This document shows positions 6,804 to 64,000 of a stretch of 64,000 nucleotides of DNA, in pieces. This DNA is from Bacillus nitratireducens (GTDB lineage Bacteria > Bacillota > Bacilli > Bacillales > Bacillaceae_G). Position numbers and translations under genes: made by a program. Position 1 is the stretch's first letter. Each line of letters begins with the position of its first letter. The stretch covers positions 111,283-175,282 of the forward strand of contig NZ_MAOC01000077.1 of the NCBI RefSeq assembly GCF_001884135.1. The letters are read 5' to 3'. The notes beneath the pieces were generated by a model, which was given only the letters and a program-made list of their open reading frames with translations, made no database searches and was not told where the DNA came from.

Positions 6804-9746
6804 TTATTTCTTATAATGTACTGTTGCTAAGTCAATCAGTTGCTGTGTTAAACTCTCCAACTTTTCTTTTGGACAAGGACTTACACGGAGTTGCTTCTTA
6901 ATTTTCTTTCGCATTTCACGTTTTACATCTTCTTTATTCGTCCATTCCACTATATCTGCTTCCTGCTGAATAATGTCCGTTATAAGATGCGTTAAGGCTT
7001 TCAAATCCTCTACATCATCATATGAAGGCATTTCTTTCTCCAGCATTTGATAAAATGGATATTGCTCACGAGTAAAGCCGTGTTCTTCACCTTTTTGTGC
7101 TGTATTCCGCATATCATTCACCATATTGCGATATTCTTCCAACAACTCATCGATATCCATCTGACGGTCTCTGCGTCGTTGAAGGAGTTCTTCAAGCCGT
7201 TCTTTTAAGGATGTATAGTACACTGGATTCTCTTCTAGCTTAACTCGTATTTCATGACGAATGGCATGCTCCATTTCAGCTGCTTTACCTTCTGGTGTCT
7301 TCGCTTCCTCTATCTGTTTTTCAAATCGATTCGAAAGAATATCAATTGGCTCATGAACAACATTAATACCTACTGCCGTAAGATGCTCCTCTATAAGCTG
7401 CTTTACCTTTTCTCCACAGTCACTAATATCCATCCCATCGACACGATAACGAGACTTTGCTGCTTGCCGTATTTTACCTAGAAGTTTTAAATCTGCTATG
7501 TAATCATGTGCTTTGGAACTAGGCATTACCATATCCATGCTTTCTGAAAACCGTTTAAATGCTGTATCAAATTCATTTCGTACGTCTTCTGGCTCTAACA
7601 CCTGTAAGCATGCTTCTAGATTTTTTTTCGAAATCTTGTCGAAAAAGCGCATAGCAGAACGATGACGAGACTGTAATTTTGGTATCTCAGTATCAATATT
7701 TTTTAATGCACCTTGTACATCTTCTTTATTGAAAATAGCAAGTGCTTGTTCTAGGAATCTAGAAACGCCATAGTAATCGACAATCAAACCATAAGTCTTT
7801 TTATCATATGTACGATTTGTACGAGCTATGGCTTGTAGAAGATTATGTTCTTTAATCGGCTTGTCTAAATACATAACCTGTTCGATTGGAGCATCAAAGC
7901 CAGTCAACAGCTTGTCACACACGATTAAGAAACACAACTTATCCTCCGACATCGGATTCTTAAAACGAGCAATCACATCTTTTTCTTCTTCTTTTGACAA
8001 ATGATGTTTTTGGAGATGTTCCCCATCATTATGACCCGCTGACATGATAACTTTAGATTCATAATTACTTAGTTCATCTAACATCTCTTTATACATAACT
8101 GCTGCTTCACGGCTAATCGCTACAATTTGTGCCTTGAAGCCATTTGGCTGGATATGTCTTTCATAATGTCTAATCATATCTAGCACAATACGTTTAATTC
8201 GTTTTTGAGACGAAATAATCGCTTGTTCTGTCGCATACTTCTTCTTAATACGCTCTCGGTCTTCTTCACTATACTCACGAAATTGTCGCTCAAACAGTTC
8301 GTCTAATGAATCTCCTTGCACATGTAAATCAGCCATTCTTGCTTCATAAAAAATAGGTAATGTTGCCCCATCTTTCACTGCTTGTTCAATGGTGTATTTA
8401 TCAATGTATGGTCCGAATGTACGATTTGTACTCTTATCTTCTTTATCAATTGGTGTACCTGTAAATGCCAAATAACAAGCATTTGGCATGGCACTTTTCA
8501 TTGTAGTAGCTAATCCACCGTATTGAGAACGGTGAGATTCATCAATCATGACAAAAATATTCTCAGCAGTAGATAGGTTCTTGAATTCCTTTGTCTCTGC
8601 ATCCTCTTGAAACTTCTGTACCAATGTCATAATAGTAGAGCCTACACCTTGTTGAATCAGCTGCCGTAATTGTGCAACTGACTCTGCCTGTTGTGGATTT
8701 GGGAAGCCACATCGACGGAACGTGTTTGTGATTTGGTCATCCAAGTCTTTACGGTCTGTCACAACAATGATAGTAGGATTTTTAAGTTCTTTAATCCGTC
8801 GCAGCTTTACCGCAAGATACACCATTGTTAAGGATTTTCCACTTCCTTGTGTATGCCATACAACACCGCCACGTTGCGTCTTATCCTCAGCACCTAAAAT
8901 TCGTTCAATTGCCTTGTTTACTGCACGGAACTGCTGATAGCGAGCAAGTTTCTTAATTGTACGTCCTTCTACTGGCTCATATACAATGAAATTACGAATT
9001 AAATCTAGTAGACTCTCTTTTGTTAACATTCCCGCTGTTAAAATATCTTGTGGTGTTGGAGAAACTCTTAGTTCTACGACTGTTTTTGGATATGGGTCTT
9101 TCCATTCACTATAGTGCTGCACTTTCGCTCCAATTGTTCCTACTTTGGCACGGTCATTGCTCGTTACAATCATAAATTGGTTGTAATAAAATAGCTGCTC
9201 ATGTGTGTTCTGATATCGATGTAACTGTCGTACTCCCTCACCAATTTGTTCATCTGGAGATAGCATAGGACTTTTGCATTCAACAATAACAAGAGGCAAT
9301 CCATTTATGAAAATGATAAGGTCAGGACGTATGTTACCTTGTGCATTGCTAATGGTAAACTGGTCTACCACAAGAAATTCATTATTTTCGGGTCTTTCGA
9401 AATCAATAAGTTTTACTGTTTGATTCTTTTTCCCCTTGCCAAGGTCTTGCTGAACAGAAATCATATTTACTATCATTTCATGAAACTTTTGATTCGCTTC
9501 CATTAAAGTGGTCGATTCAATATGGGTAATGGAGCGTACGACCTTTGCTAGATTGGTATCAGAAAGCCAAGGATTTAGTCGTAAGATAGCTTTACTTAAA
9601 CGTTCTTTTAATATGATTTCCCCTCTTGATTCTCGTTCTGAATCAAGAGAAGGACCATGAAGATGTTCATAGTCCAGTTCCTTTAATTGTTCAATCATAC
9701 GGTTTTCAACAAGCTGTTTCTCATTCCATTTAGCGGAGGAGGTCAT
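6804..9746 (-). CDS. hsdR: Type I restriction enzyme, R (motor/nuclease) subunit
   Basis: A 980-residue HsdR subunit, which translocates DNA with ATP and cuts it when the site is unmethylated. The N-terminal nuclease domain shows RPDLIIF and VECKSP (PD-(D/E)xK type) near residues 138-157. The SF2 helicase core follows: Walker A HTQGSGKS near residue 300, DESH near 400, AFTGTP, and the late motif QAIARTNR. The C-terminal helical region should bind HsdM. Length is normal and no motif is missing, so it looks functional. The ATG overlaps the hsdS stop (ATGA), with GAGGTGA upstream inside hsdS, so the two are translationally coupled. Confidence 0.95.
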   Translation of the reverse strand: MTSSAKWNEKQLVENRMIEQLKELDYEHLHGPSLDSERESRGEIILKERLSKAILRLNPWLSDTNLAKVVRSITHIESTTLMEANQKFHEMIVNMISVQQDLGKGKKNQTVKLIDFERPENNEFLVVDQFTISNAQGNIRPDLIIFINGLPLVIVECKSPMLSPDEQIGEGVRQLHRYQNTHEQLFYYNQFMIVTSNDRAKVGTIGAKVQHYSEWKDPYPKTVVELRVSPTPQDILTAGMLTKESLLDLIRNFIVYEPVEGRTIKKLARYQQFRAVNKAIERILGAEDKTQRGGVVWHTQGSGKSLTMVYLAVKLRRIKELKNPTIIVVTDRKDLDDQITNTFRRCGFPNPQQAESVAQLRQLIQQGVGSTIMTLVQKFQEDAETKEFKNLSTAENIFVMIDESHRSQYGGLATTMKSAMPNACYLAFTGTPIDKEDKSTNRTFGPYIDKYTIEQAVKDGATLPIFYEARMADLHVQGDSLDELFERQFREYSEEDRERIKKKYATEQAIISSQKRIKRIVLDMIRHYERHIQPNGFKAQIVAISREAAVMYKEMLDELSNYESKVIMSAGHNDGEHLQKHHLSKEEEKDVIARFKNPMSEDKLCFLIVCDKLLTGFDAPIEQVMYLDKPIKEHNLLQAIARTNRTYDKKTYGLIVDYYGVSRFLEQALAIFNKEDVQGALKNIDTEIPKLQSRHRSAMRFFDKISKKNLEACLQVLEPEDVRNEFDTAFKRFSESMDMVMPSSKAHDYIADLKLLGKIRQAAKSRYRVDGMDISDCGEKVKQLIEEHLTAVGINVVHEPIDILSNRFEKQIEEAKTPEGKAAEMEHAIRHEIRVKLEENPVYYTSLKERLEELLQRRRDRQMDIDELLEEYRNMVNDMRNTAQKGEEHGFTREQYPFYQMLEKEMPSYDDVEDLKALTHLITDIIQQEADIVEWTNKEDVKREMRKKIKKQLRVSPCPKEKLESLTQQLIDLATVHYKK

Positions 9747-11035
9747 ACTTGTGTCACCTCAGCTTCGTCGACTGTTACATGGACCTTACCTGTGAGAAGG
9801 GATTGCATAAGAGCTTTTTTTATAGTTTGAAGTTCTTTAAGGCTCTTTTGTTCATTAACAACTTTCCGTTCGATTCCCAATAGGATACTTACTATCTTTC
9901 TCTGTTCATCTAGACTAGGAACTGGAATTTGAAAAATTTCTAAATCCGCCCTATTTACCTTTGGTATTCCAGTTCGTCCAGAAGCTGAAACAGAGTATTC
10001 ATAGAATCTTTTACTCAACAAAACATATTTGATAAATTCTGGAATCATACAAGCATTCTTTGACTTAATTGGATAAATGTCAGCGCTACAGATTCCTTCA
10101 AATTTAGGAAAAGCTACCTTTGCCAATTCCGGTCTTATCTTACTAAACAGTATATGTTCCTCTGTAAAAAGGTACTTCCCACTTGTAATCCCTTCTTCTT
10201 CTGCAGTATTATAGTCCAATATACGCCCTGTAAATTTTGCTATATTATTAGGACCTAAATGTGGCATAGCACAAAATGGTTCTACCTTGGGGTCAACCTG
10301 TCCACTTACAATTTCACATACATCTTTAAATACGTACAGTCCCCAATCTTCTGGTATGCTTCCAATGCTTGTATCCTTGTATTTCTCGTGTCCAATTCCT
10401 TTTGTAAGAAGTTTCTGCATTAATCCTCTTTTTACTTTTTCTATTTTCTCAATAATAGCTTCTGTTTTTTCAATCGCTTCATCAACAGAAGAAAGAATGG
10501 CTGCGATTTTTTTTTGTTCTTTGGCTTCTGGAATCGGAATAAAGGTTCTTTTTAAATGAAAAGGTCCAAAGTTTGGTTGGGCAGAACCTGTTATAAGCAT
10601 ACTTATCTGCGATAGGAAAGTTTCTGAATTTAGAAAATGGAGCAGAAATTCTCTATTAAGTACATGAGGGTCTTTAGTCTTAAAGCGAATTACACTTGTG
10701 TTCATGAGTAAAGGTAAATGCACCTTCTTGACTACTGATACCTTTCCCCATGAATTACCTGAACTAGCAATTACAATATCTCCCTCATCAATTAAGAAGT
10801 GCGGATACCTTTCCTCTACCTCATCTGCTGAAATGTACCTATTTGTCCTAGATAAATCCAATGTACCATTTACAAGATTGGTTACATTTATTACTTTGAT
10901 ACCCTCGTCTGTAAACTGCCAATTTCTCAATCCTGGTCCTTCCTGAAAGAAGGCAACATCTTCAAGAGGTTTAAATAGAAATGTACTGTTCTCTATTATC
11001 TTACTGACATAGCTAGGTAGCTTCTTATTCACCAT
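9743..11035 (-). CDS. hsdS: Type I restriction-modification specificity subunit
   Basis: A 430-residue HsdS, which reads the bipartite DNA site and holds the two HsdM and two HsdR subunits. It has the expected two target-recognition halves, each ending in a similar helical conserved segment: EQKKIAAILSSVDEAIEKTE...GLMQKLLT around residue 165-210 and EQRKIVSILLGIERK...ALMQSLLTGKV near the C-terminus. The start ATG at 11035 lies inside the end of hsdM with GGAG upstream. It overlaps hsdM by 11 bases and hsdR by 4. The recognition sequence cannot be predicted by reading. Both halves are intact. Confidence 0.95.
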   Translation of the reverse strand: MVNKKLPSYVSKIIENSTFLFKPLEDVAFFQEGPGLRNWQFTDEGIKVINVTNLVNGTLDLSRTNRYISADEVEERYPHFLIDEGDIVIASSGNSWGKVSVVKKVHLPLLMNTSVIRFKTKDPHVLNREFLLHFLNSETFLSQISMLITGSAQPNFGPFHLKRTFIPIPEAKEQKKIAAILSSVDEAIEKTEAIIEKIEKVKRGLMQKLLTKGIGHEKYKDTSIGSIPEDWGLYVFKDVCEIVSGQVDPKVEPFCAMPHLGPNNIAKFTGRILDYNTAEEEGITSGKYLFTEEHILFSKIRPELAKVAFPKFEGICSADIYPIKSKNACMIPEFIKYVLLSKRFYEYSVSASGRTGIPKVNRADLEIFQIPVPSLDEQRKIVSILLGIERKVVNEQKSLKELQTIKKALMQSLLTGKVHVTVDEAEVTQV

Positions 11036-12506
11036 ATCCCAACTCCTTTAAATACCCATACATAACCGTTTCAATTTCCTCACGCTCTTTCTCCAACTTA
11101 CGGAGTTCAACCAATGTAGCAGCCACATCAATTTGCTCTTCTTCCTCTGTTGTGTCAATATATCGAGCAATGTTTAAGTTATATTCATTTTCACGGATTT
11201 CTTCAATACTTACAGGACGACAATACTTCTCTACTTCTTCATATTTGTTGTATGCTCCTACAATCTTTTCAATATCTTGGTCACGTAATGTGTTTTGATT
11301 TTTTCCCTCGTGGTAATCACGTGAGCCGTCTAAGAAGAAAATTTTATTTTTACGTTCAGCTGGCTTGTTACGATTCAAAATGAGGATACTCGCTGGAATA
11401 CCTGTACCGTAAAAAAGATTCGTAGGTACGCCAATAACTGCTTCCAATAAATCCTCTTCAATTATTCCCTTTCGAATCACTCCCTCTGCCCCTCCACGGA
11501 ATAGAACACCGTGAGGCATAACAATCCCAGCTTTTCCTTCATGATTTAATGTTGCAATCATATGTTGGATAAACGCATAATCTCCTGCCGTTTTTGGTGG
11601 TAATCCAAAGCGGAAACGTCCATATTCGTCACTTTCCGCTTCTTCACGTCCCCAATTCTTTAAGCTGAATGGTGGATTGGCAATAACACGGTCATATAGT
11701 ATAAGTTCACCTTCTTCCAATAGCTTTGGCTCCCGTATCGTATCACCCTTTTCGATACGTTGGTCACTTAGTCCATGTAGTAAGAGGTTCATCTTACAAA
11801 TTGCCCATGTATTGAGGTTTCTCTCCTGTCCATGTAGAACTAGATTTCGTGGGTTTCCACCTTGTTCTTTGATGTAATCAACGGATTGGATAAGCATCCC
11901 ACCAGAACCTGCAGTAGGGTCACATACACGCATACCTTCTTCTGGTTTAATCAATTTCACAATTAGTTCTACTACTTTGCTTGGTGTATAGAACTCCCCA
12001 CCTTTTTTCCCTGCATCGTCTGCGAATTGCTTAATAAGGTACTCATATGCACGACCAAGCATGTCAGGCTCGGATAGGCTTGCATTACTTAAATCGATTT
12101 TGGAAAAATGCTGCAATAACTGTAGTAAAAGGTTGTCAGGTAGCTTCTCCTTATCATTAAAATCGATAGTTGCAAGTACACCTTGTAGCGATACGTTTTC
12201 CTCCTCTAACTTTTCGAAAGCCTTATTAATCGCATCTCCAATGTCTTGTGTTTTGGAACGAATATCTTCCCATCTTGCGCCTTCTGGAACGAAGAATTGA
12301 TGTTCATCACGGTCAGTCCAACCGTAATCATCTCCTTCTTCCTCTTCAATACGTTTTGCTGTTTCTACAAATACATCATTTAAGCGTTTTAGGAACAGTA
12401 AACCAAATATGTAGTTCTTATAGTCGGAAGAATCAATGCTTCCCCGTAGTATGTTCGCAGATTCCCATAAATGGGATTCCAGTTGTTGTAACGTTAACTT
12501 CTCCAT
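11025..12506 (-). CDS. hsdM: Type I restriction-modification DNA methyltransferase subunit
   Basis: A 493-residue N6-adenine methyltransferase. The N-terminal helical domain is followed by the SAM-binding motif DPTAGSGGM near residue 200 and the catalytic NPPF motif near 280 (ANPPFSLKNWG). The ATG at 12506 is preferred over the one at 12524, because GGAGGAAAG lies between them at correct spacing. It is the first gene of the hsdM-hsdS-hsdR operon, in the usual order in which methylation is made before restriction. The complex protects host DNA and supplies the methylase for HsdR-dependent defence against phage and plasmids. Confidence 0.95.
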   Translation of the reverse strand: MEKLTLQQLESHLWESANILRGSIDSSDYKNYIFGLLFLKRLNDVFVETAKRIEEEEGDDYGWTDRDEHQFFVPEGARWEDIRSKTQDIGDAINKAFEKLEEENVSLQGVLATIDFNDKEKLPDNLLLQLLQHFSKIDLSNASLSEPDMLGRAYEYLIKQFADDAGKKGGEFYTPSKVVELIVKLIKPEEGMRVCDPTAGSGGMLIQSVDYIKEQGGNPRNLVLHGQERNLNTWAICKMNLLLHGLSDQRIEKGDTIREPKLLEEGELILYDRVIANPPFSLKNWGREEAESDEYGRFRFGLPPKTAGDYAFIQHMIATLNHEGKAGIVMPHGVLFRGGAEGVIRKGIIEEDLLEAVIGVPTNLFYGTGIPASILILNRNKPAERKNKIFFLDGSRDYHEGKNQNTLRDQDIEKIVGAYNKYEEVEKYCRPVSIEEIRENEYNLNIARYIDTTEEEEQIDVAATLVELRKLEKEREEIETVMYGYLKELGYGE

Positions 12507-13080
12507 GTTCTTTCCTCCATCCAATTTCTATCTATATTCATGTATATTGATGAATAAGCTTGTCTACCTTCTACTATAACAAAATGGTGTGTGTACAACT
12601 AGAGTTATCCTAAATCTAAAATGTCCATAGAATGGAAATTTTAAATAACAGTAATTAATAAAAACAGCATTTTATATTGAATTTTATGCTAAGAACCCTC
12701 ATCACATATTCAGGACGTAAACAAAGTAAGTAGAACATTTACCTCCCTCTCTTTTCTAACAAAAAAGAGAACAGCCATGTGACTATTCCCTTCCACTCAA
12801 TTTTTAGTGATTATGCGTTTCATACTAAAGCTCTAAAACTTTATAATATGAATATTTTCAACTCCCCTTGTCCGCATTCAACTTATAATATTTATCCTTC
12901 AAATGTATTGATTGATTTTGTTGATATATTAGAGGAAACAAAGTAATTACCTTACCATTATACAGACAGTTAAAGACATAATTTTGTGGTCACAAATGGT
13001 CACATAACTTACAATAACCATTGCTGTTTTGGTAGAATTCCGTTTATATAAACCCATGAAAATGCCTTTAAATCAACGTT
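12507..13080. other. Gene-free stretch upstream of hsdM
   Basis: AT-rich spacer of about 570 bases. It should hold the hsdM promoter; TAGTTG and TATAGT separated by 17 bases on the minus strand (about 12572-12602) are a weak candidate. Two direct TGGTCACA repeats lie at 12986-13004 next to the tRNA-like sequence. No gene was seen. Confidence 0.4.
12986..13004 (+). repeat. Two direct repeats of TGGTCACA, possible integrase arm sites
   Basis: GTGGTCACA at 12986-12994 and TGGTCACA at 12997-13004 are followed by a third copy, GTGGTCAC, at 13228-13235 on the other side of the tRNA-like sequence. Tyrosine integrases bind short repeats of this kind on the arms of their attachment sites. The link to the adjacent integrase remnant is inferred. 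Confidence 0.45.
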
Positions 13081-13240: not shown

Positions 13241-13726
13241 CTACAAAATCTCTTCTATTTTGTTTACCGCATCTTCTTGCATCATTGGCAACACATGTGA
13301 GTAAATATCCAATGTGATTTTGATTTTACTATATCCTAATCGTTCAGAAATCACCTTCACATTTACGCCTTTCGCCAATGGCAAAGTTGCATGTGTGTGA
13401 CGTAAATCATGAAACCGAATCTTTGGCACAACCGCTTTCTTAATCAAAGCGTTTAGACTTCGTCTCACATTAGCAGGATTAATTGGCGTTCCAGAAGGAG
13501 TACACATCACCAAGTCATTGTCTTGGTATTTCTCATCAATGAACACTACTTTATACTTTTCTACTTCCAACTGACTTTTTGCTTCACCAAGCGTTTCCAC
13601 CATGTTTTTCAACTCATTAATCACATAAGACTCTTCCACTATATTCACTTGTTCTTGGATTTCTAATTGGAGTTGTTCTATGCTTTTTATCAATCCACGT
13701 TTATTCTCTAAATTAAACACCTTCAC
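13241..13726 (-). pseudogene. Tyrosine integrase remnant (C-terminal part only)
   Basis: The C-terminal 100 residues match phage/ICE tyrosine recombinases: HDLRHTHAT carries the second catalytic Arg and flanking His, and DIYSHV carries the nucleophile Tyr. The N-terminal arm-binding and core-binding domains and the first catalytic Arg are missing. The first 60 residues are lysine/glutamate-rich and look unlike an integrase, so the frame may be a fusion after deletion. At 161 residues it is less than half the usual length of about 370-390. No recombinase activity is expected. Position beside a tRNA-like sequence supports a decayed integrative element. Confidence 0.75.
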
Positions 13727-19900: not shown

Positions 19901-21160
19901 ATGATCGAAATTAAAGTACCTGAGCTTGCAGAATCTATTACCGAAGGAACTATCTCACAATGGCTTATCAACGTAGGCGACAAAGTTGAGAAAGGTGGCA
20001 GCGTTGTTGAGCTTGAGACTGACAAAGTCAATGTAGAAATCATTGCAGAAGATTCAGGTATTGTATCGAAGTTACTAGGCGAACCTGGGGATACAGTTGA
20101 AGTTGGCGCAACTATCGCAATTTTAGATGCAAACGGAGCACCAGTTGCAGTAAGTACACCTGCACCATTGGCTGAGCAACCAAAACAAGAAACTACTGAA
20201 GCACCGAAAGCAGAAGCTCCAAGTGCTGAACAAAATAAAGCGTTGCAAGGTTTACCAAATACAAATCGTCCTATCGCATCACCAGCTGCTCGCAAAATGG
20301 CTCGTGAATTAGGAATCGACTTAAACGATGTACGCAGCACAGATCCACTTGGACGTGTGAGACCACATGATGTACAAGCTCATGCTGCAGCACCAACAGA
20401 AGCACCAGCTGCTCCAAAAAGTCCAGCTCCTGCTCCAGTTGCAAAAACTGAATTCGAAAAACCAGTTGAGCGTGTGAAAATGTCCCGCCGCCGTCAAACA
20501 ATTGCAAAACGTCTTGTAGAAGTTCAACAAACATCTGCAATGTTAACAACATTTAACGAAGTTGATATGAGTGCGATCATGGAATTACGTAAAGAACGCA
20601 AAGATGCTTTCGAGAAAAAACATGATGTGCGTCTTGGCTTCATGTCATTCTTCACAAAAGCAGTTGTTGCAGCATTAAAACAATTCCCATTATTAAATGC
20701 TGAAATTCAAGGCGATGAGCTTATCATTAAAAAATTCTATGATATCGGTATTGCAGTAGCAGCTCCAGATGGATTAGTTGTTCCAGTTGTACGTGATGCT
20801 AACCAATTGAACTTCGCTGAAATTGAAAGCGAGATTCGTAATTTAGGTCTAAAAGCACGTGATAACAAACTTTCATTAAAAGAGCTACAAGGTGGTACAT
20901 TTACAATTACAAACGGTGGTGTATTCGGTTCTCTAATGTCTACACCAATCCTAAATAGCCCACAAGTAGGTATTCTAGGAATGCATAAAATCCAAGTACG
21001 CCCAGTTGCGATTGATAACGAGCGTATGGAAAACCGTCCGATGATGTACCTTGCACTATCTTACGATCACCGTATTGTTGATGGTAAAGAAGCAGTTAGC
21101 TTCCTTGTTGCTGTTAAAGATATGCTTGAAGATCCAAAATCATTATTATTAGAAGGTTGA
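19901..21160 (+). CDS. sucB: Dihydrolipoamide succinyltransferase E2 component
   Basis: A 419-residue E2 (odhB). Domains in order: lipoyl domain with the modified Lys in ETDKVNVE near residue 43, an Ala/Pro-rich linker, a peripheral subunit-binding domain ([18 protein letters not shown]), a second Ala/Pro linker, and the catalytic acyltransferase domain ending in [12 protein letters not shown] with the active-site His and Asp. Start ATG has GGGGAGGA upstream. It forms the core of the 2-oxoglutarate dehydrogenase complex with sucA and a shared E3 encoded elsewhere. Confidence 0.97.
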
Positions 21161-21177
21161 TAGATTATTAATCTATT

Positions 21178-21213
21178 AAAGGCTGTAGAATGAATCATTC
21201 TACAGCCTTTTTT
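21178..21213 (+). terminator. Terminator of sucAB
   Basis: AAAGGCTGTAGAATG and CATTCTACAGCCTTT form a perfect 15-bp stem with loop AAT, followed by a T-run. Strong intrinsic terminator. Confidence 0.92.
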
Positions 21214-21285
21214 TATTGTGTTCATACGGGACAAATTACATGACATAAGCTAATAATGTATGCCTAAAGCGTAAGGGGGATAAAC

Positions 21286-23205
21286 ATGAATAACCTTCCA
21301 GTTCATGCAAAACTTAAAGCAAATAAGGATACTTTCTTCCTCCCCGATTCAAACGGGGGTGTTTACTTTCGAAATAACTCCAGTTCATTCCGTATGGATG
21401 GTGATGGAATTTATGACTGGATTGAGAAATTAATGCCTATGTTTAACGGTAATCATTCTTTGACAGAAATAACCGATGGTCTCCCTCTCCCCTATCAAAA
21501 TCGTGTATTTGAAATTGGAGAGATTTTATATGAAAATGGTTTCGTCCGTGATGTAAGTCAAGATGCTCCTCATGAATTAAACAGTGCGTTACTCGACAGG
21601 TACGCTTCTCAAATTGAATTTTTAGAAGCCGATTCTCATTCAGGTGCTTTAAAATTCGAGACGTACCGTGCGGCAAATGTCCTTATAATTGGTTCTGGGG
21701 ATATGCTTACTTCCTTAGTTTCTTCTTTACTAGAATCCGGATTACCTAAATTTCATTATCTTGTCACAGATTATGCGGAAACAAATTACGCTCGAATTCA
21801 TGAGCTAGTAGAACGTGCACATGAACTTGATGACAATGTATTTATTCAAGAAATAGATACGACAACGGATCGTCCTTTACATGAAGTATTCGAGCCTTTC
21901 GACTGGATTTTATACGTTTCTCAAAATGGAGATATTGAAAGTTTAAGAGCAATACATGCTATTTGTAGAGATGAGGGAAAAAATTTCATACCAGCTGTTT
22001 GCTTATCAAGAGTCGGTTTAGCTGGTCCTGTCGTAATAGCAGATCGTGAAGAATGCTGGGAATCCGCATGGCATCGTCTACACGAAACTACTTTACAAAA
22101 TGAAAATCCGCCAGAGCCTTTCTCACCAATCCCATCTGCAATGTTAGCAAATGTTATCGTTTTTGAATTGTTTAAACATGTCGCTGACGATTTACACCGG
22201 CAGCATAATCCTCAATTCTTTTTATTAAACTTTGAAACACTTGAAGGAAAGTGGCACCCTTTTATAAAGCATCTTCTCGCAACCGATGAAACCTTTACAA
22301 TTGATACAGTGCAAAATCTTCAAGAAAACCTTGCCCATCGTTCTGGACAATATACTTCAACTGAACTTTTTCGTTTTTTTGATACATTAACTTCTAAAGA
22401 AGCTGGCATATTCCACATGTGGGATGAACAAGATTTGCACCAATTACCTTTATCACAATGCTATATTCAAGTTGCAAATCCATTATCAGACGGACCTACC
22501 TCTCCCCTTCCTACTATAACTTGTGGTGGTTTAACTCATAATGAAGCACGCCGCGAAGCTGGTTTAACAGGAGTTGAAACGTATGTAGCTGAAATGATTC
22601 ATCGTCTTATCCCCGAACATACTGATATCGGTATTGGTGCTGGGGAAACGATGACAGAAGGTGTATACCGTGCACTGCAAAAACATTTAAATAATAAGTT
22701 GTGTGAACGCCAATCACATATGCTAGAAGAAGTTACAGAGCTTGATTTAACCGAAATTCATGATAAACATTGTAGGTTTTACTATGATGCTCTCTCTACA
22801 ATTCATGAGATACCTAAAGTGGGAATGAGTGAGGAGTTACTCGGTTTTCCTGTCATTTGGATCGGCATAAATGATAGATGGTACGGTGCGGCAAATATTA
22901 ATATAACATTGGCGTTAAGAAACGCTCTGCAACAAGCACTCCTTCATATTCAAAATGAAGAGATTCCTTATAAAGCTAATATTTTGCCGGAATCATCCGT
23001 TGTTTTATATAGTACGGATTCTGTTAGAGTAGCAATACAAGAAGAGGAAGAGATTCCAGGCGTACAGTCTTTACAAGTTGCCTTACAAAATTTAGCAGAA
23101 AATAATTTTTATCCATTCGTTTTTGATTTAGCTATTGAATCATTTTTAAGAGACAACTTAGACGGTGTATACGGGGTATTAATTGCAAAGGAGGACGGTC
23201 TATGA
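21286..23205 (+). CDS. Thiazole-containing bacteriocin maturation protein (ThiF-like)
   Basis: A 639-residue protein of the type annotated in the B. cereus group as a putative thiazole-containing bacteriocin maturation protein. Residues 1-95 resemble a PqqD-like peptide-binding (RRE) fold. Residues about 125-300 form a ThiF/E1-like Rossmann domain (ANVLIIGSGDMLTSLV), and the C-terminal 230 residues resemble part of a YcaO domain (TCGGLTHNEARREAGLTGVETYVAEMIHR). It probably binds the precursor leader and helps the cyclodehydratase. It overlaps the next gene by 4 bases and heads the maturation operon. A strong ribosome binding site (AAGGGGGA) precedes ATG 21286. No adenylation activity can be claimed. 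Confidence 0.85.
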   Translation: MNNLPVHAKLKANKDTFFLPDSNGGVYFRNNSSSFRMDGDGIYDWIEKLMPMFNGNHSLTEITDGLPLPYQNRVFEIGEILYENGFVRDVSQDAPHELNSALLDRYASQIEFLEADSHSGALKFETYRAANVLIIGSGDMLTSLVSSLLESGLPKFHYLVTDYAETNYARIHELVERAHELDDNVFIQEIDTTTDRPLHEVFEPFDWILYVSQNGDIESLRAIHAICRDEGKNFIPAVCLSRVGLAGPVVIADREECWESAWHRLHETTLQNENPPEPFSPIPSAMLANVIVFELFKHVADDLHRQHNPQFFLLNFETLEGKWHPFIKHLLATDETFTIDTVQNLQENLAHRSGQYTSTELFRFFDTLTSKEAGIFHMWDEQDLHQLPLSQCYIQVANPLSDGPTSPLPTITCGGLTHNEARREAGLTGVETYVAEMIHRLIPEHTDIGIGAGETMTEGVYRALQKHLNNKLCERQSHMLEEVTELDLTEIHDKHCRFYYDALSTIHEIPKVGMSEELLGFPVIWIGINDRWYGAANINITLALRNALQQALLHIQNEEIPYKANILPESSVVLYSTDSVRVAIQEEEEIPGVQSLQVALQNLAENNFYPFVFDLAIESFLRDNLDGVYGVLIAKEDGL

Positions 23206-25151
23206 TTCAAAATATATTACTTACAGGAGATGGCCTACTTGCAGACTATGTACATGATCAATTATGCAAACAATATTCCATCATTCGCCAACATACAATT
23301 ACAGACGAAATGCCTGAAAATATTCACCTCGCTCTCATATTACATGACGGCTCTCCTTCTACTATTCATCATGATGCTGAGCTGACATTTCGTTCGAACC
23401 ATATTCCGTGGCTTCGTGCATTTACTTCATTTGGTGAAGGCGTTATCGGTCCTTACATTGACCCTCTTGCAACGGGATGTACCCATTGTGCCGATGGACG
23501 ACGCTTTATCGCTGGATTTGATCAAAAAGAAATGTGGGAACTACAGCGGAAATATGCGTTAAAAGCGGATAACGAGACGAGGCGTGATGTACGCGCTACT
23601 CAAAATGGTATGTTACAAATGTGCCAGCTCATTCATGCTGAAACGGAGAAAATATTAGCTCACGGACATTCTTCTTTAGAAAATGAACTCATTTTACTAA
23701 ACTTACAAACTCTGCAATGTATGCGGCATTCGTTCCTTCCAGATCCTCTCTGTCCGGTATGTAGTAATTTACCTGATGATACTGCGGATGCGGCAGAGAT
23801 TTCTTTACAACCGAGCTTAAAAACAAGTAATGAAGCGTATCGCTGTCGTTCTATTCATGAGCTAAACACATTTTTAACGAGAGACTATTTAGATTACCGG
23901 ACTGGTATTTTGAATGGAAAAATGCAGCATTCTTTATTACCATTTGCTGACGTCATTATAAACATGCCGTTACTGTTCGGAAATGAAGGTGTTGCAGGCC
24001 GAACTCATTCATTTGCACTGAGTGAGGCAACTGCTATTTTAGAAGGTTTAGAACGATATTGCGGTATGTCACCTCGCGGGAAAAAGACAAATGTGCATGG
24101 TAGTTTTCATGATTTAGAGGATCATGCACTGAATCCCCTCACACTCGGTGTACATACAAATGAACATTACAACCGTGATAGTTTTCCGTTTAAACCATTT
24201 GATCCTGATTATGAGCAAAACTGGGTATGGGGATATTCTTTATCACAAAACAGGCCCCTTTTAGTTCCAGAATCAATCGCTTATTATAGCCTCGGTCATC
24301 GAGATGCTTTCGTATATGAAACATCAAATGGATGTGCAATTGGTGGTAGTTTAGAAGAAGCAATTTTTCACGGCATTTTAGAAATTGTAGAGCGTGACGC
24401 CTTTTTACTCACTTGGTATACAGAATTACCTCTTCCCCGTCTTGATCTTAATTCAGCAAATGATACAGAATTACAATTAATGATCCAGCGGTTACACACG
24501 ATTACGGGGTATGAATTATACGCTTTTAACGCGACGATGGAACATGGCATCCCGAGCTTATGGGTCATTGCAAAAAATACGCGTGACACTGGAATGAACG
24601 TTGTTTGTGCGGGAGGCGCTCATTTAGACCCCATCCGAGCTCTAAAAAGTGCGATCCACGAAATTGCTGGCATGTTACTTATAACAGATGAAGAGCTTGA
24701 ACAAAAAAGAGAGAAATATGAAAACTGTTTACAAGATCCATATCTTGTTTCGCAAATGGAAGATCATAGTATGCTGTACGGATTGAAAGAAGCAGAAGAA
24801 CGTCTTCACTTCCTTTTACGTGAAGATTCTCCGGTGCAAACGTTTCAAGAAATGAGGGCATTACAATCATTTGATATGGATTTAACATCTGATCTTCATC
24901 AACTTTTAAACAGGTTACATCAATCCGGACTTGAAGTAATCGTTGTAGATCAAACCGTTCCCCTTATAGAAAAGAACGGCTTACATTGTGTAAAAGTAAT
25001 AATTCCAGGCATGTTACCGATGACGTTCGGTCACCATCTCACTCGGGTTACAGGATTAGATAGAGTGTATACCGTACCGATGACACTTGGATATTGTGCT
25101 GAGCCTTTAACGAATGAAAGTTTAAATCCACATCCGCATCCTTTTCCATAA
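23202..25151 (+). CDS. YcaO-family thiazole/oxazole cyclodehydratase (SagD type, fused C-D)
   Basis: A 649-residue fused cyclodehydratase. The N-terminal 200 residues form a ThiF-like scaffold with two Cys pairs (GCTHC, CPVC) that should bind a structural zinc. The YcaO domain follows with SEATAILEGLERYCG and SLEEAIFHGILEIVERDAF, the residues that bind ATP and Mg. The C-terminus ends in the Pro-rich PHPHPFP, the PxPxP-type tail typical of azoline-forming YcaO enzymes. It uses ATP to turn Cys, Ser or Thr of a precursor peptide into azolines. ATG overlaps the previous stop. The catalytic set looks complete. Confidence 0.92.
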   Translation: MIQNILLTGDGLLADYVHDQLCKQYSIIRQHTITDEMPENIHLALILHDGSPSTIHHDAELTFRSNHIPWLRAFTSFGEGVIGPYIDPLATGCTHCADGRRFIAGFDQKEMWELQRKYALKADNETRRDVRATQNGMLQMCQLIHAETEKILAHGHSSLENELILLNLQTLQCMRHSFLPDPLCPVCSNLPDDTADAAEISLQPSLKTSNEAYRCRSIHELNTFLTRDYLDYRTGILNGKMQHSLLPFADVIINMPLLFGNEGVAGRTHSFALSEATAILEGLERYCGMSPRGKKTNVHGSFHDLEDHALNPLTLGVHTNEHYNRDSFPFKPFDPDYEQNWVWGYSLSQNRPLLVPESIAYYSLGHRDAFVYETSNGCAIGGSLEEAIFHGILEIVERDAFLLTWYTELPLPRLDLNSANDTELQLMIQRLHTITGYELYAFNATMEHGIPSLWVIAKNTRDTGMNVVCAGGAHLDPIRALKSAIHEIAGMLLITDEELEQKREKYENCLQDPYLVSQMEDHSMLYGLKEAEERLHFLLREDSPVQTFQEMRALQSFDMDLTSDLHQLLNRLHQSGLEVIVVDQTVPLIEKNGLHCVKVIIPGMLPMTFGHHLTRVTGLDRVYTVPMTLGYCAEPLTNESLNPHPHPFP

Positions 25152-25170
25152 TTCATAGCGAGGGGGAAAT

Positions 25171-26736
25171 TTGATGCAACCTGATACTTTTTTACATCAT
25201 CTCCATTTTTCTATTAATGAAATTATGTCGTCCGATAAAGAGATTGACTGGGAAGACGCACCACTTCCTTATAAATTATATCGAAATTTACCAGTAATCC
25301 CTCTCTCTTTAGAAATCCCATTAACTTTGCGGAATTCTTCTACTAAACCTAACTTAGAGGAAATCGGTCATTATCTTTGGTACTCATTTGGTTTAACACA
25401 ATTATGTCAGCCTACTACTAACCTAGAAAATAATAAAACAACGACTCTATTTCGAAGATTCATCCCTTCTGGGGGTGCTTTATATCCAAATGAATTATAT
25501 ATATATTTAAAAATTGATCATTATCCAGACGGCATTTATCATTATGACGCCGCGCATCACCGTCTTATCTTACTTCGTGAAGGAAATTTTGATTCTTATC
25601 TTACAGAAGCACTCGGCAATCGTTGTAACATACATTCTTGTTTTGGAGCAGTATTCGTATCCACTATGTTTTGGAAAAACTTCTTTAAATACAATAACTT
25701 TTCATACCGGCTTCAAGGGTTAGATAGTGGTGTTCTAATCGGGCAATTACTTGAATGCGCAAAACAATTCGGTTATACCAATGGTGTATATTTTCAATTT
25801 CTAGACCGGGCAATGAATCATTTACTTGGACTGTCAGAAGGTGAAGAAAGTGTGTATGCTGTTATTCCTTTAAGTACAGAACCGAATACAGATTGGTTTC
25901 ACGATAATCATCACGAAAATAAAACTATTACTTCTCATGACTTGTTGCAGCAAATCCCGCCTTTAACACATGAGCATTTCGTTCGCTCAAAGCATGTAGA
26001 TGAATATCCGATGATAACAAAAGTTAACGCAGCTTCTATGATTGAATCGACAGAACACTTCCAAACATTAACTCAAGAAAATCGACAGCAATACAGTGCA
26101 CACGCTGTACAGCTACCTAAAGTGGAACGTTTATCCTATGATTTCTTACATCTTTGTAAAAAACGATATTCACCTGATTCTGACTTCATTTTAACGAAAT
26201 GGGATGCAGCCGAGCTCGCTACTTTACTACAAGAAGCGAGCCTCTCCTTCCCTTATTACAACGACCTTGATGGCAAGTATGTAAATGAAAACGCACGAGT
26301 CTCACTATACGGATGTTTTTATAACGTAAAAGACATAGAAAACGGCGCTTACGCTTATAACAGCAGGTCACATTCCATACAGCCAATTCGGTACGGAGAC
26401 CTTCGTCATCCGCTTCAATCTAGTATGACGATGGATAACGTAAATCTTTTTCAAGTACCACTTTGTCTACATGTAATCGGAAATAAAGATTACTATACAC
26501 ATACATTAGGTTATAGAGGATATCGCATTCATCAAATGGAAGCTGGTATACTCGTTCATAAACTCGTTTTTGCAGCGACTGCGATGGGAATGGGTGGGCA
26601 TCCTTTACTGAGTTTTGATACAAATTCATGTGATCAGTTGTACGGGATAGATGCTGGAAATGAAACGTCTCTCATTCAAATTCCTGTTGGGGCATATCGA
26701 GCGCGGAATTGGCTAAAAGGGTATTTGTATAATTAG
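25171..26736 (+). CDS. SagB-type azoline dehydrogenase
   Basis: A 521-residue protein of two nitroreductase-like halves. The first half includes FRRFIPSGGALYPNELYIY and GLDSGVLIGQLLECA. The second half includes YRGYRIHQMEAGILVHKLVFAATAMGMGGHPLLSF. This is the fold of FMN-dependent SagB dehydrogenases, which oxidise azolines to thiazoles and oxazoles. The start at 25174 (second ATG) may be the true one, as GAGGGGGAAATTTG lies just upstream; the frame opens 3 bases earlier. It is the third enzyme of the maturation cluster and ends at a strong terminator. Its partner precursor is not in the window. Confidence 0.88.
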   Translation: MMQPDTFLHHLHFSINEIMSSDKEIDWEDAPLPYKLYRNLPVIPLSLEIPLTLRNSSTKPNLEEIGHYLWYSFGLTQLCQPTTNLENNKTTTLFRRFIPSGGALYPNELYIYLKIDHYPDGIYHYDAAHHRLILLREGNFDSYLTEALGNRCNIHSCFGAVFVSTMFWKNFFKYNNFSYRLQGLDSGVLIGQLLECAKQFGYTNGVYFQFLDRAMNHLLGLSEGEESVYAVIPLSTEPNTDWFHDNHHENKTITSHDLLQQIPPLTHEHFVRSKHVDEYPMITKVNAASMIESTEHFQTLTQENRQQYSAHAVQLPKVERLSYDFLHLCKKRYSPDSDFILTKWDAAELATLLQEASLSFPYYNDLDGKYVNENARVSLYGCFYNVKDIENGAYAYNSRSHSIQPIRYGDLRHPLQSSMTMDNVNLFQVPLCLHVIGNKDYYTHTLGYRGYRIHQMEAGILVHKLVFAATAMGMGGHPLLSFDTNSCDQLYGIDAGNETSLIQIPVGAYRARNWLKGYLYN

Positions 26737-26767
26737 AAGCACGCCGGTTGATGGCGTGCTTTTTTTA
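26737..26767 (+). terminator. Terminator of the bacteriocin maturation operon
   Basis: AAGCACGCC and GGCGTGCTT pair around GGTTGAT and are followed by TTTTTT. It separates the SagB gene from the methyltransferase, which probably has its own promoter. Confidence 0.9.
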
Positions 26768-26829: not shown

Positions 26830-27420
26830 TTGGGCATTTTACAACGTTTAATCAAACAAGCGAAAAATCCTCGTGGAACAATCGGTTCCTCAATGCTTTG
26901 TATTATGAACTCTGCACATACGAGACTAACAAATTGGGCTTTACAAAAAATACATATACGTGAAGATGCAGTTATTTTAGATATTGGTTGTGGGGGTGGT
27001 AAAACAATACATACGCTTTCGAAACTAACTCCGTTTGGGAAAATATATGGAATTGATTACTCCGATCAAGCTGTGAAAGATTCTATACATACGAATATGA
27101 AAGATGTACAAACACAAAAAGTAACTGTTCAAAAAGCAAGCGTCTCTTCTATTCCACATCATGCGAACTTCTTCGATCTCATTACCGCTTTTCAAACACA
27201 CTACTTTTGGCCTGATGTGGAACAAGATATAAAAGAAGTATTTCGCGTCCTACAACCGAACGGATCCTTTTTATTAGTGGCTGAAACTTTCAAAATTCAA
27301 TATCATATGGAGAAATGTAATACGACTGAAGAATTAATAAACCTATTTTATAATACAGGATTTACAAGCGTGAAATGTTATGAAGAAAGAGGTTGCCTTT
27401 GCATAATAGGAAATAAATAA
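26830..27420 (+). CDS. Class I SAM-dependent methyltransferase
   Basis: A 196-residue methyltransferase. Motif I is DIGCGGGKTIHTLSKL near residue 42, followed by an acidic residue (YGIDYSD) for the ribose and VEQDIKEVFRVLQPNGSFLLV, as in small-molecule methyltransferases. The start is TTG at 26830 with AAAGGAGCG upstream. It is separated from the maturation operon by a terminator, so a role in modifying the same peptide is possible but not shown. Substrate unknown. Confidence 0.85.
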   Translation: MGILQRLIKQAKNPRGTIGSSMLCIMNSAHTRLTNWALQKIHIREDAVILDIGCGGGKTIHTLSKLTPFGKIYGIDYSDQAVKDSIHTNMKDVQTQKVTVQKASVSSIPHHANFFDLITAFQTHYFWPDVEQDIKEVFRVLQPNGSFLLVAETFKIQYHMEKCNTTEELINLFYNTGFTSVKCYEERGCLCIIGNK

Positions 27421-30130: not shown

Positions 30131-30559
30131 ATGTGCGCCGGCCTTCTCGCTCAAACTCCAGAGGAACCGCAAGAACCGAAACCCGCCGTGTCGCTTGACC
30201 AAGAATTTTCCATTAACGCAACATTATACAGCGCTCGTGCTTGGTTATCTAACGACGAGACTTTCGCACAAACTATTTGGAAAGGCTCTCGCTTCGCTTC
30301 AGCATCACACGCTGGCAAGTCCATCTTACCAATCGGTACTGTTAAAATTTTGAACTTATCTGATGATACAATAACAGTTACTGCATCATCAGAATCAGAT
30401 GATGTCCTCAAAATAGTCGTACCGCCTCGTTCTGAAGGTGTTTTAACATCTAGTGCATTATCTGATGTGCAAGCTAGTACATCAGGAGGAGCAAGTAAAG
30501 TCACATTCCTCTTTCACATCTTTTTCTCAAGGGATCCTGGTCCAGCTAAACAACCATAG
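30131..30559 (+). CDS. Hypothetical protein, 142 aa
   Basis: I do not recognise the family. The protein starts MCAGLLAQTPEEPQEPKPA and has a Pro/Glu-rich N-terminus, then Ser/Thr-rich beta-like segments (TVKILNLSDDTITVTASSESDD) and ends SRDPGPAKQP. There is no true signal peptide. The start ATG has AGTAGGTGA upstream, and a strong terminator follows, so it is a real monocistronic gene. Its composition (Ser, Thr, Ala rich, few Lys) resembles small Bacillus spore-surface or virion-like beta proteins, but that is only a compositional impression. Confidence 0.65.
   Translation: MCAGLLAQTPEEPQEPKPAVSLDQEFSINATLYSARAWLSNDETFAQTIWKGSRFASASHAGKSILPIGTVKILNLSDDTITVTASSESDDVLKIVVPPRSEGVLTSSALSDVQASTSGGASKVTFLFHIFFSRDPGPAKQP

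Positions 30560-63470: not shown

Positions 63471-64000
<530 letters not shown>

Follow-up and report, generated by a model that had tools for sequence, protein, structure and literature searches.

A heterocycloanthracin locus in Bacillus nitratireducens and a predicted degenerate YcaO domain in its F protein

A 64,000-nucleotide stretch of Bacillus nitratireducens DNA (contig NZ_MAOC01000077.1, positions 111,283 to 175,282; the whole stretch is called the window below) carries the heterocycloanthracin (HCA) locus of the B. cereus group, corresponding to BA_1266 to BA_1268. The locus consists of three tightly packed open reading frames (ORFs) on the + strand, here called F, D and B. An original prediction, made from the letters alone, had described a cluster of a ThiF/RRE-like protein, a fused YcaO cyclodehydratase and a SagB-type dehydrogenase, and had placed it in the HCA type. 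The first claim was confirmed and the second was supported. All three ORFs were intact, and the family matches were far above the curated cut-offs. The F-D-B cluster is already known, and the one in the window is one more copy of a system described since 2009. The predicted ORFs were open and full length at the following coordinates:

21286-23205, + strand, F gene, 639 amino acids, ocin-ThiF-like protein of HcaF type (RRE/ThiF-like)
23202-25151, + strand, D gene, 649 amino acids, fused cyclodehydratase of HcaD type
25174-26736, + strand, B gene, 520 amino acids from ATG, SagB-type dehydrogenase

F matched TIGR03693 with 1178 bits (curated cut-off 562) over profile positions 1-637 of 637, compared to 907 bits for the best of 397 sampled Bacillales genomes. 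Matches of D were found to TIGR03604 (470 bits, cut-off 219, residues 266-649), TIGR03882 (152 bits, cut-off 37, residues 68-237) and PF02624 (299 bits, cut-off 26), and B matched the SagB-type dehydrogenase family TIGR03605 (228 bits, cut-off 78). The assignment to the HCA type agrees with the published description (PMC2674419). D was found to be a fused C-D cyclodehydratase that lacks an N-terminal RRE, and heterocyclases in the PDB matched from residue 265 onward only. It is built from a short E1-like/C region (about 1-205), in which cysteines 93, 96, 184 and 187 are invariant, a YcaO domain (266-604) and a PHPFP end. The YcaO ATP-site positions were intact: the residues in the window are those identical in 64/64 D proteins, positions which we take to be the ATP contacts. 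The C-terminal PHPHPFP tail that had been pointed out turned out to be the conserved end of D, the last five residues, PHPFP, being identical in all 64. B consists of two related nitroreductase-like halves (profile comparison of the halves, E 9.5e-11). A search of plasmids with F gave six records, all below 60% identity and none of them a B. cereus-group plasmid.

F is laid out as an RRE (about 16-90), an E1/ThiF-like region (about 115-336) and a degenerate YcaO-like region (about 413-626). Residues 16-90 matched the solved RRE of PbtF with E 5.1e-7 as a single sequence and 7.6e-13 as a family profile, in agreement with the predicted leader binding by residues 1-95. The RRE of HCA clusters has been assigned to TIGR03693 proteins by RRE-Finder (PMC7470986). 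Profile comparison linked residues 95-360 to D's short C region (E 1.3e-13). The C-terminal region is, as judged from sequence comparison, a putative YcaO relative that has lost the ATP-site residues, which bears out the original reading of a second YcaO-like region without the full ATP-binding set. Profile-profile comparison of F 340-639 with a broad YcaO profile (the YcaO domain of the D family and 20 further Bacillales YcaO proteins) gave E 6.6e-9, probability 95.8 and a score of 70.8 over 173 columns. The best of 40 column shuffles scored 19.8, so that the real score was 3.6 times as high, and the controls with reversed F, reversed YcaO and B gave E 0.58, 0.36 and 0.39. In the register of the broad YcaO comparison, G453, R462 and P522 were identical in 65/65 F proteins. 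D residues N376, E394, E397 and R398, identical in 64/64 D proteins, faced variable or unlike residues in the 65 F proteins. In the first motif, where the register was set by eye, E281 and R285 of D were lost in F, and E284 was kept as E431 in 65/65. Of the E..ER residues in the two ATP-site motifs, F has thus kept E431 alone, and its positions 428, 432, 448, 466, 469 and 470 vary.

The precursor was said in the original prediction to be encoded away from the enzymes, and this is the normal published state of the B. cereus group. The HCA locus BA_1266 to BA_1268 (HcaB, HcaD and HcaF) was published in 2009 by Haft with a remote precursor, located 1.27 Mb from the enzyme locus in B. anthracis Ames, and one precursor or more was reported for each of the completed B. 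anthracis, B. cereus, B. thuringiensis and B. weihenstephanensis genomes included in that study (PMC2674419). Neither the cluster nor the lack of a neighbouring precursor is therefore out of the ordinary. The earlier failure to see a precursor in the flanking spacers was extended to 1802 open frames of at least 20 amino acids over the whole window; none was convincing when searched with profiles of the precursors and of the leaders of 33 relatives. The precursor profile matched best (E 0.041) in a frame that runs antisense to a collagen-like repeat where the window ends, followed by a match with E 0.082; for the leader-only profile the best E was 1.1. The collagen-like GPT/GAT repeats at 63615-64000 belong to the start of a gene, presumably BclA-like, that is truncated there. 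Off-frame readings of these repeats give Cys-Xaa-Xaa runs that mimic the precursor of a thiazole/oxazole-modified microcin, and the runs at 63686-64000 were rejected as a precursor on this ground. The precursor of one relative gave no match in plasmids and phages, a weak negative result, as the low-complexity filter may hide such peptides.

In Bacillales, a precursor adjoining the enzymes is the default and a remote precursor is the exception. Of the 397 genomes sampled, 116 matched TIGR03693 and 110 had a near-full-length F after removal of six fragment matches. Precursor matches to TIGR03601 were found in 94 genomes, one of which (G284) had a weak precursor-like match (E 4.8e-5, below cut-off) without a near-full-length F. 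Among the 93 genomes that had F as well as a precursor match, 88 carried the precursor in the orientation of F and 118-904 bp upstream of it (median 196 over 89 rows), and four carried it 4 to 10 kb upstream; the remaining genome had a single weak match on another contig. In three genomes (G182, G378 and G277) the precursor was seen 7-10 kb upstream of F. A TIGR03601 match was absent from 17 of the 110 F-bearing genomes. Fourteen of these were inspected, and a Cys-rich small ORF was found just upstream of F in ten and not in four. In the loci L102, L104, L105 and L107 (genomes G318, G298, G255 and G339), F was intact and no Cys-rich ORF was seen within about 1 kb upstream. Since neighbouring genes are the rule among the sampled Bacillales, the distant location of the precursor in the B. 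cereus group seems to be derived and probably reflects a later separation of precursor and enzymes. Besides the B. cereus group, a second group in the sample has moved its precursor, by some kilobases. HCA-type clusters of other Bacillales (Priestia, Peribacillus, Brevibacillus and Neobacillus) share the F-D-B order with the window, and the best relatives among them have 45-53% identity in F, 53% being the highest value in the sample. They differ in having the precursor close upstream of F and, in the 24 relatives compared, in the lack of an adjoining odhAB. Order and strand of F-D-B were kept in 63/64 relatives examined. The exception was L122 (genome G184), which had no D match of at least 80% length and a YcaO frame of just 474 amino acids.

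The surroundings of F-D-B in the window were as follows:

19901-21160, odhB, upstream neighbour of F-D-B and part of odhAB
21178-21210, + strand, hairpin with T run 3' of odhB, intrinsic-terminator-like, parting odhAB from the cluster
21211-21285, + strand, leader/promoter spacer of F with ribosome-binding site AAGGGGG and without a precursor ORF
26735-26763, + strand, hairpin with T run directly 3' of B, terminator-like, separating the methyltransferase gene from F-D-B
26830-27420, + strand, class I methyltransferase-like gene 3' of the terminator-like hairpin

The upstream hairpin has a 15 bp stem and a folding energy of -21.5 kcal/mol (z -6.6), and the downstream hairpin, which was missed by the terminator pattern scan, has -18.4 kcal/mol (z -5.1). 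Equal stability was reached in 0/200 shuffles for each. With these terminator-like hairpins on both sides, F-D-B gives the impression of a single, separate transcription unit, and the methyltransferase-like gene probably lies outside it. The ATG of D overlaps the stop of F (ATGA). B starts 22 bases 3' of D behind the ribosome-binding site GAGGGGG, and ATG 25174 was judged by eye to be a better start than TTG 25171. A sigma-K-like motif of doubtful meaning, AC-N16-CATANNNTA, was seen at 21226-21252, upstream of F. The consensus patterns used in the motif scan are those we assume for the sigma factors, and this one matched 12 times in the whole window on both strands. Sporulation control through this motif was rejected: it was present upstream of the precursor in 1/33 relatives (expected fraction 0.017), and the motif at F was therefore treated as chance.

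Three further features were observed in the window. An ORF of 142 amino acids at 30131-30559, between a CoA-disulfide-reductase-like and a TcaA-like gene, had no Pfam or NCBIfam match at 0.001. By eye, the genes at 6804-12524 resemble a type I restriction-modification set, and a piece beside them at 13241-13726 looks like the last part of a tyrosine recombinase.

Several results weigh against a YcaO relative in the C-terminal part of F and favour a separate, non-YcaO domain whose similarity comes from convergence or composition. Compared with the YcaO domain of the D family alone, F 340-639 gave a weak E of 0.0009 (25 rows) or 0.0019 (64 relatives). A hidden Markov model of that domain failed to pick out F, scoring an unrelated ORF (E 0.064) better than any F protein (best E 0.19). 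The reverse search placed D (E 0.0022) just ahead of an unrelated ORF (0.0035), and an unrelated control, the middle part of F against the YcaO profile, reached E 0.032. PF02624 was absent from the best 25 of 30 Pfam families for 26 F proteins, and no YcaO model was among 21 NCBIfam families for the F proteins. The AlphaFold2 models (five sequences each) were too poor to judge the fold of the C-terminal part, with a mean pLDDT of 49 for F and 47 for D; a Foldseek search with the F model placed TruD at rank 24 (E 3.4e-7, 681 columns) with a TM of just 0.2. The rows of the VIA search cover F 115-336 only, and YcaO chains were not among the matches listed, which excludes nothing. As for the role of the extra domain, TclI of micrococcin works with 242 amino acids and has no such part (PMC10634744), so pairing in general does not call for it. 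Set against a non-YcaO domain are the E of 6.6e-9, the distance to the shuffled scores and the order of the 173 columns, which is that of the YcaO domain. Both poor models also share a helix, three strands and a helix (F 494-558, D 422-493), which is suggestive at most. On balance, a separate domain was considered unlikely.

Two other explanations concern the cluster as a whole. It could be an orphan in decay, with the precursor gone and the enzymes left as relics. That no precursor of this strain was seen in the 64-kb window speaks for decay and against an HCA system in working order, and the 17 F-bearing genomes without a TIGR03601 match point in the same direction. However, all three ORFs are full length with their active-site positions kept, the Cys-rich small ORFs near F in ten of the 14 inspected genomes had been missed by the family model, and a precursor was reported by Haft from each completed genome studied of the four species named above. 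Decay is therefore very improbable. A second possibility, allowed for in print, is that the neighbours are part of the pathway and put additional groups on the product (PMC4603692). The printed HCA neighbours are a methyltransferase, a succinyltransferase and a 2-oxoglutarate dehydrogenase (PMC2674419; PMC4603692), and in the B. cereus group odhAB and the methyltransferase lie next to the cluster. The window showed no difference from the published locus of that group, which has the same three proteins, the same neighbours and no adjoining precursor. Decoration by the neighbours is weakened by the strong terminator-like hairpins and by the 24 relatives with flanks, in which the odhA, odhB and DUF3908 ORFs were not matched and the methyltransferase was matched once (L002), at 26% identity and on the opposite strand. 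Hardly any weight was left for this explanation.

We consider it likely that the locus is a chromosomal HCA unit of the B. cereus group, with F as the leader-binding protein carrying a degenerate YcaO domain, D as the cyclodehydratase, B as the dehydrogenase and a remote precursor. According to published work, the leader is bound by the F protein, and a shortened D forms a pair with F and depends on it for activity; leader binding, 1:1 pairing of F and D and azoline formation have been shown in relatives (PMC4603692, PMC10634744), and azol(in)e formation on the precursor has been reported for the HCA system (PMC4603692). By analogy, the RRE of F would take the leader of a Cys-rich precursor encoded elsewhere. 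As expected from their families, D would then use ATP to convert core cysteines to thiazolines, and B with FMN would oxidise these to thiazoles. Inspection of flanks of up to 5 kb in 24 relatives showed no transporter, protease or immunity gene that generally accompanies the cluster, although short or divergent proteins could have been missed. Families that recurred in at least three of the 24 loci were those of the precursor (seven loci), of an aminotransferase-like regulator (four), and of an ABC ATPase and an aldehyde dehydrogenase (three each), grouped by crude clustering with product names given by eye. Since no conserved gene of this kind was found beside the cluster, export and trimming of the product probably depend on genes in other places. 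The ring-bearing product is probably antibacterial.

F is probably a pseudoenzyme cousin of D, composed of an RRE, an E1-like part and a dead YcaO domain, which pairs with the live enzyme. The dead YcaO domain would most likely serve as a docking or dimer-shaping part for pairing with the YcaO half of D. Leader binding and catalysis, which are combined in one chain in TruD or LynD, would thereby be split over two chains. The window D matched the cyanobactin heterocyclases LynD (E 1.1e-35) and TruD (3.5e-35) over the YcaO domain; these enzymes hold RRE, E1-like part and YcaO in one chain, whereas in the window they are spread over F and D. The micrococcin proteins TclI, TclJ and TclN likewise comprise an RRE and ThiF-like scaffold, a YcaO enzyme and a dehydrogenase, and TclI is without the extra C-terminal part of about 300 amino acids of the window F (PMC10634744). 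As a tentative proposal, with somewhat less than an even chance, F and D could be the halves of a duplicated TruD-like heterocyclase. D would have lost leader binding and F catalysis, and the dead YcaO domain would dock in a pseudo-symmetric F:D pair with leader and active site in different chains. No statement of a pseudo-YcaO reading of F was found in the literature searched; the main primary HcaF paper of 2015 was outside that search, and the reading is not claimed as new. It would explain why the HCA-type F is about 400 amino acids longer than the F protein of micrococcin, and it makes a testable proposal for how leader binding is handed on to the chain that carries out catalysis. If the duplication proposal is true, the split of leader binding and catalysis would let one enzyme set serve precursors encoded anywhere.
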